Below, one piece after another: positions 36,029-42,174 of a stretch of DNA of 64,000 nt. Positions within the stretch are counted from its first letter, which is position 1, and every line of letters starts with the position of its first letter. Source of the DNA: Serpentinicella alkaliphila (lineage in GTDB: Bacteria > Bacillota > Clostridia > Peptostreptococcales > Natronincolaceae); NCBI RefSeq assembly GCF_018141405.1, contig NZ_CP058648.1, positions 1,565,001-1,629,000 on the forward strand. The letters are read 5' to 3'. The notes beneath the pieces were generated by a model. The model worked only from the letters and a program-made list of their open reading frames with translations. It did no database searches and was not told the DNA's origin. A program made the translations under genes and the position numbers.

Positions 36029-36124
36029 ACTTTTCTCCGAAATGGCAAACCATTGGAAACAACGGGACGCAAAGCTACAGGCCTAATCGATTAGTATTGC
36101 AGCTGAGCTACCGAAGGGAAAGGT
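36029..36124 (+). promoter_or_regulatory. c-di-GMP-I (GEMM-I) riboswitch, first aptamer of the adhesin leader
   Basis: Class I hallmarks in order: GGCAAACC, a GNRA-type GGAAAC loop, GGGACGCAAAGC, AGGCCTAA, then GAGCTACCGAA. P1 is ACTTTTCTC (36029-36037) with GGGAAAGGT (36116-36124). TTTTTATTAT follows P1 directly, as after the other two class I aptamers in this window. P2 has one A-C mismatch. It lies about 330 nt before the adhesin start, on the same strand and with no gene between. No intrinsic terminator with a compact stem is obvious, so its expression platform is unclear. Confidence 0.9.
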
Positions 36125-36178
36125 TTTTATTATAACTAATCAAATAATCTTTAAACTAGGGGGGTGGGCTAGTATCAG

Positions 36179-36231
36179 GTGACAGTATGGTGATTACATA
36201 TACACATTTCTTTTGTCGGACATACTATCAC
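36179..36231 (+). other. Large imperfect hairpin between the class I and class II aptamers
   Basis: GTGACAGTATG (36179-36189) pairs with CATACTATCAC (36221-36231), 10 of 11 positions, around a 31-nt loop. There is no T-run. It may be a spacer or part of the GEMM-I expression platform. Confidence 0.4.
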
Positions 36232-36260
36232 ACAAAGGATAATAGAATGATGTAGTTGTC

Positions 36261-36337
36261 AAAAAGGAAGCTATGAAACGTACTTTGTATTTGGGCACTT
36301 TAAGTACGGGGAGCGAGTAGTGCAACCGACCTTTCTT
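36261..36337 (+). promoter_or_regulatory. c-di-GMP-II riboswitch, aptamer 1
   Basis: Matches the class II aptamer: CTATGAA, TTGGGCACTT, a hairpin arm ending in AAGTACG, then GTAGTGCAACCGACC. GCACT in the loop can form the class II pseudoknot with AGTGC downstream. P1 is only 5 bp (AAAGG 36263-36267 with CCTTT 36330-36334). Its 3' arm CCTTTCTT can alternatively pair perfectly with the 5' P1 arm of aptamer 2. Confidence 0.92.
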
Positions 36338-36344
36338 GATTAGT

Positions 36345-36424
36345 AAGAAAGGGATGCTATGAAGTACACCTTTCACATGGGCACTTGAGGTTGTATGGAG
36401 CAAGTAGTGCAACCGACCTTTCTT
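36345..36424 (+). promoter_or_regulatory. c-di-GMP-II riboswitch, aptamer 2
   Basis: Second tandem class II aptamer: CTATGAAGTACACC, ATGGGCACTTGAGG, then AAGTAGTGCAACCGACC. P1 is a perfect 8 bp (AAGAAAGG 36345-36352 with CCTTTCTT 36417-36424). The 3' arm of this P1 can instead pair with AAAGAGAGG (36439-36447), which includes the start of the adhesin Shine-Dalgarno. Ligand binding should therefore free the ribosome site. Confidence 0.93.
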
Positions 36425-36457
36425 TAGACGAATTGTTTAAAGAGAGGAGAGAGATGT
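36417..36457 (+). promoter_or_regulatory. Shine-Dalgarno switch of the adhesin gene
   Basis: CCTTTCTTT (36417-36425) and AAAGAGAGG (36439-36447) are complementary over 9 positions with one G-T pair and a 13-nt loop. The second element overlaps the purine-rich ribosome site (36441-36453) before the ATG at 36458. This hairpin competes with P1 of aptamer 2. Confidence 0.75.
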
Positions 36458-38095
36458 ATGAGAAAGAATAAATCAATTATCAAATCTATGTTAGCAGTAA
36501 TTATGACTTTAATTCTAACATTTGGTAGTACACTAAGCGTATTGGCTGCTAGTCCAACTTTGATCATTAGAAAAAATTGGAGTTGGCAGGAAGGAACATT
36601 CAAAATAAATGGTGTACCACAGGAAGGAATATATGAAATGTTCTCTGGAGAAACTTCGCCAGGCAATTTTAATGCTCCTTTCGGTAAAACAGTAATTGGG
36701 ACAGTGTATATGCAAAATACTACAAGTCAACAGTTTGATTGGTCTTTAATCTCAGGACCCCCAATTTCTAGAATTTGGGTGAAGGGTGGACCTAACGCTC
36801 TAGAATATGATTATGGAAGTGGAGCAACTAGTGGGTTTGGGCTAGTAGCACCAGACAACAAAGATATAAGTCATGTTGTTTTCTTCTTTGGGCAAACACC
36901 GGTAGATGACGATGATGATGATTCTCCTGCAATTATTTTTGTAGAAAACTCGGAAGGGCAACTGGTATCCATCTACACTATTTCGGGCTTCAAGTTTGAA
37001 GAAATAACTGGTGAAACAAATAAACCTTTGGAGGATTGGAAAATCATACTCACAGGACCTGGAGAAATAAAACACGAAACTCAGACAAATGAAGACGGCA
37101 AATATCAATTCACTTTGAATAATGCTCCAACGGGAACTTACATTGTAACAGAAGAAATCCCTAGTGGATGGCAGAATATAACTGAATTATCTCAAACTAT
37201 TAATTTAGGATCTGGACTCTATACTATACCTTACGAAAAAGGAACACTACAGCTGGGGTTAGATCAAAATATGACAAGTATATTTACTGAAACATTTGTA
37301 GCTGAAGGTAGAATAGGAGATCTTGGTGGAAACGCAACCCATGAAATTAATATTCATACGCCAAATCAAGGCTCTGTTCAGTCACAAGGAAACTTTAGCT
37401 GGGCAAATGGTGGAGAAAAAGTACCTTTCGAATTAAGATACGATAATGGTCTAGTTAGTTTTACGGTAGGTAACGCAGGTACCTTGACCTACAGTACAGG
37501 CGAATCAGTTAAAGATATTGTCATACGGACAAGAGCCACGAAACCTGATTCTGGAATAAAAATCTCAGATATTGTATTAAACGGAGAAAGCATTTCTGAG
37601 ACATCTGTAGCTATTGGAAACGGAGTGGGTGTCGGAAATCTATGGATTAGAGGATATAATTTGGATAATGGATTTATATTAACTGGAAACTCCCAAATGT
37701 ACTGGGACGCAAACTCAATTCCGACTAATTCACAACTTGCATTCCAAATAAAAGTAGGAGAGGCAGAACGAGTAAATGAATCCTATCAAATTGATTTTGT
37801 TAATAAACGGCTACAAGTGGTTGATCCTCCGGTAGTTGATCCTCCGGTAGTTGATCCTCCGGTAGTTGATCCTCTTGATCCAATAATAGATTTATTAGAT
37901 GAAGAAATCCCATTAGCAATAGTAGACTTTGATATAGATGGTGATGACGAGGAAGAATTGATTCTTTTAGATGAAGAAATTCCTCTTGGAATAGTTACAT
38001 TACCAAAAACAGGGGAAATAAATCCATTAGAGTTTGTGATTTTCGGATTACTACTTGCAGTAGTTGGATTTAAATTAAGAAAAGAATCGATCTAA
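36458..38095 (+). CDS. Sortase-anchored surface adhesin with Cna-B domain (LPKTG)
   Basis: 545 aa. Signal peptide at 1-30 (cleavage around VLA-AS), an N-terminal beta-rich domain (about 32-155) resembling the ISHVVFFFG module of clostridial surface proteins, an acidic DDDDDDS linker, a SpaA/Cna-B domain (about 176-265: LEDWKIILTGPGE, NEDGKYQFTL, GTYIVTEEIPSGW), another beta domain (about 280-430), a VVDPP repeat, two copies of LDEEIPL flanking an acidic stretch, then the sorting signal LPKTG at 515-519 with a hydrophobic helix and RKESI tail. It would be covalently fixed to peptidoglycan. The sortase gene follows at 65 bp. The leader carries three c-di-GMP aptamers, so expression should follow c-di-GMP. 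The start ATG 36458 is 8 nt after GGAG; ATG 36454 is out of frame. Confidence 0.9.
   Translation: MRKNKSIIKSMLAVIMTLILTFGSTLSVLAASPTLIIRKNWSWQEGTFKINGVPQEGIYEMFSGETSPGNFNAPFGKTVIGTVYMQNTTSQQFDWSLISGPPISRIWVKGGPNALEYDYGSGATSGFGLVAPDNKDISHVVFFFGQTPVDDDDDDSPAIIFVENSEGQLVSIYTISGFKFEEITGETNKPLEDWKIILTGPGEIKHETQTNEDGKYQFTLNNAPTGTYIVTEEIPSGWQNITELSQTINLGSGLYTIPYEKGTLQLGLDQNMTSIFTETFVAEGRIGDLGGNATHEINIHTPNQGSVQSQGNFSWANGGEKVPFELRYDNGLVSFTVGNAGTLTYSTGESVKDIVIRTRATKPDSGIKISDIVLNGESISETSVAIGNGVGVGNLWIRGYNLDNGFILTGNSQMYWDANSIPTNSQLAFQIKVGEAERVNESYQIDFVNKRLQVVDPPVVDPPVVDPPVVDPLDPIIDLLDEEIPLAIVDFDIDGDDEEELILLDEEIPLGIVTLPKTGEINPLEFVIFGLLLAVVGFKLRKESI
37821..37873 (+). repeat. 15-bp tandem repeat coding VVDPP
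   Basis: TTGATCCTCCGGTAG is repeated three times without change (37821-37865) with a partial fourth copy. It encodes a proline-rich stalk just before the cell-wall anchor and is a likely site of length variation. Confidence 0.9.
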
Positions 38096-38160: not shown

Positions 38161-38787
38161 ATGAAGAAAATGAGTTATATTTTTATTACTATAGGAATCT
38201 TAACAATGTTATATCCTTTTTTTAATAATTTCTACCAATCATATTGGCAACAGAATCTTCTAAATCAAGTAGATATTGCAGAGTCTGTAATAGAGGATTA
38301 TCAGTTGTTAAATGAATTTTTCTATGAAGAGTTAGATTATTTTGAAGAACAAGAAGTTGATACTATTGAAAGAATGGAAGAAGTTGTAAATAATAGTAGC
38401 AATTTGCTTGGAACTATAGAAATTGCTAAAATTAATCTTAGATTACCTATTTTACTTGGTACAAGCAGTAGTAATTTAAGAAAAGCTGCAGGTCATTTAA
38501 GTGGAACAAATTTTCCGGGAGAAATAGGTAATAGTGTCATTGCAGCTCACAGGGGACGTAAATACGGGGTGTTGTTTAATAGACTAGAGGAGTTAGAAGC
38601 AGGAGATAAGATTGTTATAACTACAAAAGGTGAAAAACATGAATACACAATATATCTAAAAAAATTTGTAGAACCTACAGATTTGTCTGTGCTTAATCGT
38701 AATAGCAAAGATAGAATATTGACACTAATTACATGCGACCCTATAAATAATCCAACACATCGAATAATTATTCATGCAAAAATGTAA
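38161..38787 (+). CDS. Sortase (class D-like)
   Basis: 208 aa. One N-terminal membrane helix (about 4-22), then a sortase fold: IGTIEIAKINLRLPILLG-type opening near residue 82, catalytic His in AAHRG, catalytic Cys in TLITC, and the Arg in THRIIIHAK. The order and the lack of a lid motif (DPW/F-G) suggest class D or E rather than pilin-polymerising class C, but the HRG and LFNRLEELEAGD stretch is also class C-like. It should anchor the LPKTG adhesin encoded immediately upstream. The 3' end of the gene is duplicated beyond the IS element that follows; this copy is complete. Confidence 0.9.
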   Translation: MKKMSYIFITIGILTMLYPFFNNFYQSYWQQNLLNQVDIAESVIEDYQLLNEFFYEELDYFEEQEVDTIERMEEVVNNSSNLLGTIEIAKINLRLPILLGTSSSNLRKAAGHLSGTNFPGEIGNSVIAAHRGRKYGVLFNRLEELEAGDKIVITTKGEKHEYTIYLKKFVEPTDLSVLNRNSKDRILTLITCDPINNPTHRIIIHAKM

Positions 38788-38863
38788 AAAGCAATGTAAA
38801 AAATTTAATTATATTGTAGAAAAATATTTGATTATTTTCAAAAATATATGGTATAATTATCAT
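38552..38863 (+). repeat. Left copy of 312-bp direct repeat flanking the IS element
   Basis: Bases 38552-38863 reappear at 40812-41123 with a single difference seen (A at 38722, T at 40982). The repeat covers the last 236 bases of the sortase gene and the intergenic promoter. Confidence 0.93.
38828..38857 (+). promoter_or_regulatory. Promoter (left copy), now reading into the IS element
   Basis: TTGATT (38828-38833), 18 bp, TATAAT (38852-38857). Identical to 41088-41117, which serves the transglutaminase-like gene. Confidence 0.6.
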
Positions 38864-38964: not shown

Positions 38965-40677
38965 TTATCTTTTCGTATCTTTAAAAATATTTTTCATATG
39001 TGTGTTTTTTATTATTTGATAATCCGTTCTGAAGCCAAAAGCCTCATGAAGTGCATCTGTAAAATCTGTGCGTGTGTAAGTTGGAATATAGCCATCGCCA
39101 AGGATTTCATAAAAATTCATACCCCTTAACTCTCGTATGATTTCAGTACAGGTGAACTTGTTATCTAAGTGTTTTTCAAGATATCTATAAAGCACCATTG
39201 CCAAGAAACAAGTTGTAAAGTGTGCTTCTATACGATCATCTCTTGTTAAGTACACTGGTCTTGCCTTAAATTCACTTTTCATAATTCTAAAGCATTCTTC
39301 AATCTCCCAACGTTTATGATTAACTTTAATAATTTCAGAAGCTTCATCTTCTAAATTTGTGCATACAGCATAAAAACCATCATATGCCTCTTCTTTTGAT
39401 ATAATATCTGAATCCAGTCGATAGAGGTCCTTTTCTGCCACCTCACCATCTGATGTAACGCTTGTTTTTCCTATAAATCTTTTGTAATCGTTCTGATTAC
39501 ACTTGTTGAGTTTTGATGGATTGTTTTCTATTACCTTAACAGCACGCTCAATTTGTTTATTTCGAATTTTTCTTTGATAGTCTCTATATTTAATTGAATA
39601 AGTTACAATTAGCTTTTGTTCCAAACCATTTTCTTTAATCCATCGCTCTTTATAAAAAGTAATATCTGCAAAATTGTCTTCTTCAATATCAGAGATATCG
39701 AAAACCTTACTACTACCACTTAAACTCCATCCTTCGCTAGAAAGTGCCCATTCTTTAAGATGTTTTTTAAGTTTTTTGATTGACTGAGTGGTTATAAAAG
39801 CACGTCCACCTTGATCATTAAATTTCCTATTGTCATTTGACGCTAGTCCAGCATCTGTGCATACGACAAACTTTGAGAGTTTGAAATCATTAAGTATCTT
39901 CTGTTCTAAAGGCTTTAAAGTGAGCTGTTCATTAGTATTACCTTTAGTAATGCTAAATGCTAGTGGAATACCATCCCCATCCATAAAAAGACCCATTTGT
40001 ACGATAGGATTAGGTTTGTGTTCCTTTGAATACCCATACTGTTTTAAGCCTTGCTCTTGCTCAATCTCAAAGAAGTAATTCGTACAGTCATAATAAAGAA
40101 TTCCTGAATTACGCTTAGAAAGTTTATAACTATTATTATAAAGCTCCGATTGAATATAATCAGTTTCCTTAGAAATAACTTCAAGTGCTCTATAAATATG
40201 TTGAATATCAAAATCAGGTTTTTCTAAAAATCTAGTAGATAGGTTATAGGTGGAAAGCTTAGAACCAGGAAAGATAATCCTACCATATAAAAGTCTAGAT
40301 AGTATGGAGTCAAGATTAAAAGTGAATTTATGGCGATTGGAAATCTCTTTACAGATTTTGTGAATTCCTAGATCATGATAAATCTTTTGAAGAAATAGAT
40401 AGCCTCCATTAAAAGACTGTTGCTTATCTTTACCAATAAGTTTTGTAGGCGAGTATTGAACCATGATTGTACTATTTTCTTCTTTTTCTTTTTTATTAAG
40501 TTCATCGATATATTTCTTAGCCCATTCAATAGGGTCTTCCCCGTTTAATTTGTTAAGAAGCTCATCATATGTACCTAGTTTTTCAACAATTTTAGTAGTA
40601 CGCTTATTTTTTTCAATTATATCCTTTATCACATAAAGTGAAGTAGCATTTTTAGATTTAGAAAGTGATAATCTCAT
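38965..40677 (-). CDS. IS1634-family transposase
   Basis: 570 aa, full length and uninterrupted. A DDE transposase of the IS4 superfamily: YYDCTNYFFEIE (first Asp), VVCTDAGLASNDNRKF (second Asp) and, near the C-terminus, HKRWEIEECFRIMKSEF (Glu, Y/W-2-R/E signature). GGGGGTG precedes the ATG at 40677 on the minus strand. As the gene is intact and the flanking repeats are almost identical, the insertion is probably recent. Confidence 0.93.
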   Translation of the reverse strand: MRLSLSKSKNATSLYVIKDIIEKNKRTTKIVEKLGTYDELLNKLNGEDPIEWAKKYIDELNKKEKEENSTIMVQYSPTKLIGKDKQQSFNGGYLFLQKIYHDLGIHKICKEISNRHKFTFNLDSILSRLLYGRIIFPGSKLSTYNLSTRFLEKPDFDIQHIYRALEVISKETDYIQSELYNNSYKLSKRNSGILYYDCTNYFFEIEQEQGLKQYGYSKEHKPNPIVQMGLFMDGDGIPLAFSITKGNTNEQLTLKPLEQKILNDFKLSKFVVCTDAGLASNDNRKFNDQGGRAFITTQSIKKLKKHLKEWALSSEGWSLSGSSKVFDISDIEEDNFADITFYKERWIKENGLEQKLIVTYSIKYRDYQRKIRNKQIERAVKVIENNPSKLNKCNQNDYKRFIGKTSVTSDGEVAEKDLYRLDSDIISKEEAYDGFYAVCTNLEDEASEIIKVNHKRWEIEECFRIMKSEFKARPVYLTRDDRIEAHFTTCFLAMVLYRYLEKHLDNKFTCTEIIRELRGMNFYEILGDGYIPTYTRTDFTDALHEAFGFRTDYQIIKNTHMKNIFKDTKR

Positions 40678-40811: not shown

Positions 40812-41047
40812 GGGGACGTAAATACGGGGTGTTGTTTAATAGACTAGAGGAGTTAGAAGCAGGAGATAAGATTGTTATAACTACAAAAGGTGAAAAACAT
40901 GAATACACAATATATCTAAAAAAATTTGTAGAACCTACAGATTTGTCTGTGCTTAATCGTAATAGCAAAGATAGAATATTGTCACTAATTACATGCGACC
41001 CTATAAATAATCCAACACATCGAATAATTATTCATGCAAAAATGTAA
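40812..41047 (+). pseudogene. Duplicated 3' fragment of the sortase gene
   Basis: Encodes the last 78 residues of the sortase from GRKYGVLF onward, without the catalytic His and with no start signal, so it is inert. The Thr of the catalytic TLITC motif has become Ser (SLITC) through the one base difference in the repeat. Confidence 0.9.
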
Positions 41048-41087
41048 AAAGCAATGTAAAAAATTTAATTATATTGTAGAAAAATAT

Positions 41088-41117
41088 TTGATTATTTTCA
41101 AAAATATATGGTATAAT
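41088..41117 (+). promoter_or_regulatory. Promoter of the tandem riboswitch and transglutaminase-like gene
   Basis: TTGATT (41088-41093), 18 bp, TATAAT (41112-41117). The start site would be near 41124, about 24 nt before the first aptamer. This copy was recreated by the IS target duplication. Confidence 0.65.
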
Positions 41118-41147
41118 TATCATATATAAGAAAATAATACTAAGTTG

Positions 41148-41250
41148 AACTTGTCAACGACAATAGCAAACCATTCGAAAGGATGGGACGCAAAGCTATA
41201 GGGCCTAAAGCACATAGTGCAATGGTAGCCAAGCCACCGAACGGGAAGTT
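41148..41250 (+). promoter_or_regulatory. c-di-GMP-I riboswitch, first of tandem pair
   Basis: Class I hallmarks: AGCAAACC, TTCGAAAGGA loop, GGGACGCAAAGC, AGGGCCTAA, then GGTAGCCAAGCCACCGAA. P1 pairs AACTTGTC (41148-41155) with GGGAAGTT (41243-41250), one mismatch. A TTTTTGTTATT tract follows. Confidence 0.95.
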
Positions 41251-41277
41251 TTTGTTATTATAAAATAGAATATATTT

Positions 41278-41296
41278 GGTGAAAAAGCTTTTCACC
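41278..41296 (+). promoter_or_regulatory. Anti-P1 hairpin between the tandem class I aptamers
   Basis: GGTGAAAA (41278-41285) and TTTTCACC (41289-41296) form a perfect 8-bp stem with a 3-nt loop. The right arm is the same CTTTTC that pairs with the Shine-Dalgarno in P1 of the second aptamer, so the two structures exclude each other. Confidence 0.75.
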
Positions 41297-41390
41297 GATA
41301 AAGGCAAACCACTCGAAAGGGTGGGACGCAAAGCCATAGGGCCTAACGCATTTAATGCTAAGGCAGCCGTGTTACCGAAGGAGGAGTTTT
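41282..41390 (+). promoter_or_regulatory. c-di-GMP-I riboswitch, second of tandem pair, P1 contains the Shine-Dalgarno
   Basis: Class I hallmarks: GGCAAACC, CTCGAAAGGG loop, GGGACGCAAAGCC, AGGGCCTAA, GCAGCCGTGTTACCGAA. P1 pairs AAAAA-g-CTTTTC (41282-41293) with GAGGAG-TTTTT (41381-41390 and on). GGAGGAG at 41380-41386 is the ribosome site of the gene starting at 41395. Ligand-stabilised P1 should block translation. Confidence 0.92.
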
Positions 41391-41394
41391 TATT

Positions 41395-42174
41395 ATGAAA
41401 AAAAGTATATTTATTATCGCATTACTTTTTATGCTTTCAGCAAACAGTGTTTTGGGACAAGCTGTTATAAATATTAGTAACTTAGGAAATGGTATGCTAG
41501 TTGTAAATAGTAACAGTATAGATAATAAAGACGTACGTGTTTTGGTTGAAAAGGGACAAGCTCGTTATCAATATAACATAAAAGAAAAAGAAACAAGAAT
41601 ACCACTACAAATGGGAATTGGCTCATATCAAGTAAGTGTAGTAGAGAATGTTGGCGGAAATAGATTTAAAGTTATTTCAAAAGAAACAGTAAATGTAAAT
41701 TCAATAGATGAAACAAATTTATTTCTTAGTTCAATACAGATGGTTAACTGGGATCAATCAATGAAGGCAGTACAAAAAGCTCAAGAATTAACAAAAGGAC
41801 TAAGTAACGATGAAGCAAAAGTAAAAGAAATTTATAACTATATAATAAATAATTTGGTCTATGATTTCGATAAAGTAGCTACTTTAACTTCTAATTATTT
41901 ACCAAATATAAATAAAATCTATGACGAAAACAAAGGCATTTGTTATGATTATTCATCTTTATTTGCAGGAATGTTAAGAAGTGTAGGAGTACCTACAAAA
42001 CTAGTAATGGGTTATGCTCCAAATGTGAATGAATACCATGCATGGAATGAAGTATATATTAATGGTAAGTGGGTAACAATAGACACTACTACAGATGCAG
42101 TATATAGACAAAATAATAGAAAATATGAGATGGCAAAAGATAAAAGCTTATTTAATGTAATGAAAGAATACTAA
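41395..42174 (+). CDS. Secreted transglutaminase-like (cysteine protease fold) protein
   Basis: 259 aa. Signal peptide at 1-22 (cleavage near VLG-QA), a beta-rich region to about residue 105, then a transglutaminase-like domain: catalytic Cys in NKGICYDYSSLF, His in EYHAWNEVY and Asp in WVTIDTTTD, so the triad is complete. Members of the superfamily act as peptidases or cross-linking enzymes on extracellular proteins. No anchor or SLH domain is seen, so it is likely released. Expression is controlled by two tandem class I c-di-GMP aptamers, with the second covering the ribosome site. Its neighbour is the adhesin-sortase operon. The substrate is unknown; the adhesin is an obvious candidate, by analogy with c-di-GMP-controlled surface proteolysis in C. 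difficile. Confidence 0.88.
   Translation: MKKSIFIIALLFMLSANSVLGQAVINISNLGNGMLVVNSNSIDNKDVRVLVEKGQARYQYNIKEKETRIPLQMGIGSYQVSVVENVGGNRFKVISKETVNVNSIDETNLFLSSIQMVNWDQSMKAVQKAQELTKGLSNDEAKVKEIYNYIINNLVYDFDKVATLTSNYLPNINKIYDENKGICYDYSSLFAGMLRSVGVPTKLVMGYAPNVNEYHAWNEVYINGKWVTIDTTTDAVYRQNNRKYEMAKDKSLFNVMKEY

Follow-up and report, generated by a model that had tools for sequence, protein, structure and literature searches.

Upstream of a gene for a secreted transglutaminase-like protein, two class-I c-di-GMP aptamers follow one another in a single leader. In which direction would c-di-GMP move the expression of this gene, and at which step would it act? We studied the locus in a window of 64,000 nucleotides, the whole stretch of DNA analysed, which is positions 1565001-1629000 of the 3,257,581-bp single-contig genome of Serpentinicella alkaliphila (Table 1). 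Covariance-model scores place both aptamers in RF01051, well above its gathering score of 35, in agreement with a sequence-only reading that had proposed a tandem class-I riboswitch at 41148-41397 and whose coordinates prove right to within one or two bases. The tandem sits between the gene and a promoter-like site that, judged by consensus match alone, agrees with 10 of 12 consensus positions and carries a TG ahead of its -10 element. The gene product is assigned to the Transglut_core family by its match to the family model (E 3.7e-24) and by C183, H215 and D230, which are invariant in 28 homologues and fit a Cys-His-Asp triad. The predicted structure of the enzyme has a mean pLDDT of 86, and the top matches in a structure search were a putative cysteine protease (3isr) and S. 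pyogenes TglA, with LapG further down.

Table 1. Features of the adhesin-sortase-enzyme region, in window coordinates.
Feature	Position	Strand	Remarks
Adhesin leader	36035..36457	+	Three aptamers, the first class I and the other two class II; SD region able to pair with the 3' strand of the final P1
LPXTG adhesin	36458..38095	+	Choice-of-anchor W domain
Sortase	38161..38787	+	Best NCBIfam subfamily class C, under that model's cut-off
Promoter-like site of the enzyme leader	41088..41117	+	Sigma-70-type (TTGATT, 18 nt, TG-TATAAT); consensus match alone
Anti-P1 hairpin of aptamer 1	41144..41158 (41144-41148/41154-41158)	+	GUUGA/UCAAC; P = 0.031 against shuffles
Aptamer 1, class-I c-di-GMP (RF01051)	41155-41241	+	Rfam, 74.4 bits
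P1 3' strand of aptamer 1	41242..41256	+	GGGAAGUUU, into U-tract; no start codon
Anti-P1 hairpin of aptamer 2	41278..41296	+	8 bp, loop AGC
P1 5' strand of aptamer 2	41283..41293	+	AAAAGCUUUUC
Aptamer 2, class-I c-di-GMP (RF01051)	41293-41379	+	Rfam, 79.2 bits
SD and P1 3' strand of aptamer 2	41380..41391	+	SD GGAGGAG 41380-41386; P1 3' strand 41381-41391 (GAGGAGUUUUU)
Regulated gene, secreted Transglut_core protein	41395..42174	+	PF01841, 259 aa

The promoter-like site lies within a duplicated segment. A 312-bp direct repeat with one mismatch (38552-38863 and 40812-41123) flanks an IS1634-family element, the transposase of which is encoded on the minus strand at 38965-40677. Elements of the IS1634 type are associated with long direct repeats of variable length, from 8 to 514 bp (PMC2266710). 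As the repeat duplicates the 3' end of the sortase gene together with the leader promoter, the riboswitch leader kept its promoter despite an insertion at the start of the leader.

The arrangement on which the direction of the switch depends is found in aptamer 2, where the 3' strand of P1 had been proposed to be the Shine-Dalgarno (SD) sequence itself. On refinement P1 comprises 11 bp, including 3 G-U pairs, and takes in six of the seven SD bases (41381-41386) while G41380 lies outside it. An 8-nt spacer separates the SD from the ATG at 41395. Upstream of the aptamer there is a perfect 8-bp stem (41278-41285/41289-41296), whose nucleotides 41283-41285 and 41289-41293 also belong to P1, and for this reason the two helices are mutually exclusive. 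The competition for the P1 5' strand suggested earlier is thus borne out, and the hairpin recurs in orthologous leaders. In the predicted folds the SD is paired in the ligand-bound form and the ligand-free form excludes that pairing, which is the structure of a translational OFF switch. Taking the single sequence, shuffles gave a P1 as good with P = 0.007 and an anchored hairpin as good with P = 0.005. These single-locus values are moderate, and pyrimidine-rich 5' strands pair readily with an SD, so that a purine-rich SD beside any aptamer might come to resemble a P1 strand by chance.

Comparison with related loci makes such a coincidence scarcely credible. A scan of genome contigs with the Transglut_core protein yielded distant relatives only; searches of whole genomes with it brought in orthologues across the family and the order, and 32 loci were inspected. 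Class-I aptamers lie upstream in 28, which provide 29 last aptamers as one locus has two genes; L077, L079 and L083 have no class-I aptamer within the fetched flank and L049 is a disturbed contig. Although these loci are related and the counts are not independent events, 29 out of 29 last aptamers have the SD within the 3' strand of P1 and a start codon shortly downstream, against 1 out of 32 other class-I aptamers of the related genomes. That single control, L039, precedes a different protein of 337 aa. An anchored hairpin of at least 4 bp was present for 19 of the 29 last aptamers, where 3.4 would be expected and the maximum in 1000 shuffles was 9; a clear one is missing in the remaining 10. 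The hairpin also shows compensating changes, with GGUG/CACC, GUUG/CAAC and GAUG/CAUC as alternative pairs and GGUA/UACC in first copies. Since the varying bases (CNNC before GAUAAAGG) have no matching change 3' of the aptamer, these changes favour the hairpin rather than P1.

The number of aptamers, and of aptamer-gene units, varies amongst the loci: L048 has three aptamers, and L069 and L102 have two successive transglutaminase-like genes with one aptamer each. In L045 and L074 the linker between the aptamers is short and offers aptamer 2 no clear anti-P1 arm; its P1 5' strand could base-pair with the 3' strand of P1 from aptamer 1, an interaction that would link the two aptamers.

Folding calculations place aptamer 2 in a range where ligand could decide between the two helices. 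Without ligand the hairpin is preferred over P1 by 1.0-1.7 kcal/mol, and the balance is 2.4 kcal/mol against P1 when all P1-less folds are considered, giving P1 a probability of 0.02-0.11. If ligand binding is assumed to contribute 4.3 kcal/mol, this rises to 0.96. In the same thermodynamic model, which leaves out tertiary contacts, 17 of the 29 orthologous leaders are similarly poised (median +2.0 kcal/mol) while 12 would not switch, 8 being already in P1 and 4 never reaching it. The coupling of ligand to P1 is not to be assumed, as the P1 helix of the C. difficile Cd1 aptamer was undetected by NMR (PMC9262584).

Folding the full tandem in the absence of ligand yields a minimum-energy structure where aptamer 1 is able to pair with the SD, and mean SD accessibility drops to 0.29; this long-range fold takes no account of tertiary structure or folding order. 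Such partial sequestration of the SD by aptamer 1 would suit an ON switch, in which ligand releases the SD and translation rises. We regard this as very unlikely, since the SD itself is within the ligand-stabilised P1 in every one of the 29 orthologous leaders, and the competitor of the conserved hairpin is P1 and not the SD.

With the SD inside P1 and an exclusive hairpin upstream, loss of the ribosome site on ligand binding is predicted. Our preferred reading, which we hold with good confidence on the strength of sequence and modelling, is that high c-di-GMP would, through the tandem, repress the secreted transglutaminase-like enzyme. Without ligand the hairpin would keep the P1 5' strand, leaving the SD exposed and the Transglut_core gene translated; as the hairpin is transcribed ahead of aptamer 2, this open state would be the default. 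Binding of ligand would stabilise aptamer 2 and its P1, the 5' strand would quit the hairpin and the SD would be buried. The sequence-only reading had also proposed that ligand shuts off translation, and as a prediction this gains support from the conserved P1/SD and hairpin, from the ligand-responsive folding range, and from the lack of a terminator before the start codon. The most likely role of aptamer 1 is to increase this repression or to make it sharper.

As a U-tract follows P1, termination of transcription could contribute instead of, or besides, control of translation. Repression would then be partly or mainly transcriptional, with intrinsic termination at the ligand-stabilised P1 and its U-tract in either copy or in both; in a mixed form aptamer 1 would terminate transcription and aptamer 2 block translation. 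We give this a substantial chance, if somewhat less than an even one, and it is compatible with translational repression. No ordinary intrinsic terminator hairpin was found in the leader of the window (40900-41420), nor before the start codon in any of the 29 orthologous leaders, so a conventional terminator platform was rejected; 24 of the 32 other class-I aptamers of related genomes have an intrinsic terminator. The P1 of aptamer 1 has 8 pairs with one G-G mismatch and runs into UUUUUGUU. At least 6 U occur in the 9 nt after P1 in 16 of 17 first copies, though these have no start codon to serve, but the last copies are almost as U-rich (24 of 29), and as a discriminator between first and last copies the U-tract was discarded because it separates them weakly. 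Four last copies, from two genera, have lost the U-tract and kept the SD while the first copy retains its U-tract, which suggests termination by P1 in first copies and control of translation in last copies. An upstream riboswitch is also, as argued in PMC12452182, too distant from the ribosome site to control translation directly. Against termination, the stability of the P1 duplexes, about -3 to -9 kcal/mol, is low for a terminator, and the same type of P1 with a U-tract precedes the predicted ON switch of the adhesin leader, where termination by ligand would be counter-productive. The triple-tandem c-di-GMP-I aptamers of B. thuringiensis are reportedly transcriptional switches.

The two aptamers differ at a ligand-contact position, a point absent from the sequence-only reading. 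The position is A in aptamer 1 (41165) and G in aptamer 2 (41303), and we take it to be G20 in Vc2 numbering. Aptamer 1 thus has the A20 of cGAMP (GEMM-Ib) riboswitches, and the leader could be a two-ligand gate in which aptamer 1 prefers cGAMP or a mixed ligand. In a tested tandem system A20 does go with better binding of c-AMP-GMP (PMC9481103), but in Cd1 changing the equivalent G made no great difference (PMC9262584). Moreover, the orthologous first copies carry G20, so that the A at 41165 is a change in this lineage, and A20 also occurs in 7 of the 32 other class-I aptamers of related genomes. A two-ligand gate therefore seems improbable; from the sequence comparison the cGAMP reading of aptamer 1 is possible but unlikely, and it was set aside as the main reading since A20 is both lineage-specific and common in related class-I aptamers. 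Across the order an A at this position is scattered, being found at 41165 in the window and in L069, L080 and L084.

Predicted repression of the enzyme by c-di-GMP invites comparison with the adhesin leader upstream. There the final class-II P1 has a 3' strand (CCUUUCUUUA) that complements the SD region (UAAAGAGAGG), an arrangement seen in the window and also in L085 and L090, and in the ligand-free fold this strand acts as an anti-SD with pair probabilities of 0.99-1.0. Ligand would free the SD of the adhesin, which is an ON layout, and the suggestion that the enzyme leader is built oppositely to the adhesin leader agrees with this. In class-I adhesin leaders such as L088 and L099 the 3' strand of P1 is also able to form a terminator, which by inspection is an ON layout too. 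In the window (36035-36257), L085 and L090 the class-II aptamers are preceded by a class-I aptamer that ends in P1 and a U-tract and has no start codon. This aptamer could have been left behind when the leader was duplicated, or it could serve a band-pass response. The structured spacer between it and the class-II aptamers gave no Rfam match. The label c-di-GMP-I-GGC borne by some copies was not adopted as it is merely the best-scoring member of the clan, and the match at 36035 has an A at the G of the GGC consensus (ACGCGAAG).

The gene order is itself conserved: in all 18 loci fetched a sortase gene is found upstream of the transglutaminase-like gene, in most of them with an LPXTG protein encoded before it, and most of the adhesins found have c-di-GMP aptamers of their own in their leaders, which resemble ON switches where they could be read. 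With 24 GGDEF domains encoded in the genome, c-di-GMP probably turns the adhesin on and the enzyme off, as far as leader sequences and predicted folds indicate. A conserved adhesin-sortase-enzyme cluster with an oppositely built adhesin leader suggests that c-di-GMP should toggle between an adhesin-making and an enzyme-making state.

Parts of this design are known from other systems. Vc2 of V. cholerae is a translational OFF switch governed through P1 (PMC9262584), and the leader described here resembles it in having a class-I aptamer, predicted translational repression and the stability of P1 as the switch; unlike Vc2 it has two aptamers, the SD forms part of the 3' strand of P1, and the hairpin that competes with P1 precedes the aptamer. 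Among the functional switches of C. difficile, those of class I are OFF and those of class II are ON, sortase-dependent adhesins being turned on by class II and an adhesin-cutting protease turned off by class I (PMC6200980). The cluster shares with CD2831/CD3246 and ZmpI/PPEP-1 a sortase-dependent adhesin that is on and a secreted enzyme that is off through reciprocal riboswitches, here as a prediction. It differs in having a transglutaminase-fold enzyme rather than a metalloprotease, in the predicted translational control through P1 and the SD, and in that adhesin, sortase and enzyme are together in one conserved cluster. Class-I aptamers in series, for which a steeper response is expected, are also found in the B. 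thuringiensis triple tandem, a system cited in PMC9481103. The association of tandem c-di-GMP-I riboswitches with COG1305 genes in Bacillota has been found by enrichment statistics (P=1.08E-34; PMC12452182), and ours is the same gene association. The accessible part of that paper describes neither sequestration of the SD nor the competing hairpin, and gives neither a direction nor the setting beside adhesin and sortase; a literature search, with subscription papers mostly outside it, found no other report of any of them.

What the enzyme might do is suggested by its neighbours. In the LapG/LapA system a periplasmic protease frees a surface adhesin at low c-di-GMP (PMC3032545). The protein encoded here is like LapG in its transglutaminase-like cysteine-protease fold, in its predicted availability at low c-di-GMP and in having an adhesin as neighbour, although other transglutaminase-like proteins (3isr, 9crn) are closer structural matches. 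LapG is controlled by protein sequestration, in contrast to the riboswitch here, and the adhesin as substrate is putative. Opposite regulation of adhesin and enzyme would make release of the adhesin likelier than joint assembly. More tentatively, and with less likelihood than the alternatives taken together, the cluster could be a Gram-positive riboswitch module for attachment and release, in which high c-di-GMP turns the sortase-anchored adhesin on and a putative transglutaminase-fold protease off, and at low c-di-GMP the protease cuts the adhesin off the surface. It would then be an independent counterpart of LapG/LapA and PPEP-1/CD2831, with a two-step tandem switch, of transcription and then translation, on the enzyme.

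The analysis offers a mechanism and a direction for the tandem c-di-GMP-I/COG1305 association, which was known statistically and had gone unexplained. The predicted design is compact, as the ribosome site doubles as one aptamer strand and the hairpin that competes lies upstream, and it suggests that across an order of bacteria the same signal may switch an adhesin and an enzyme in opposite directions.
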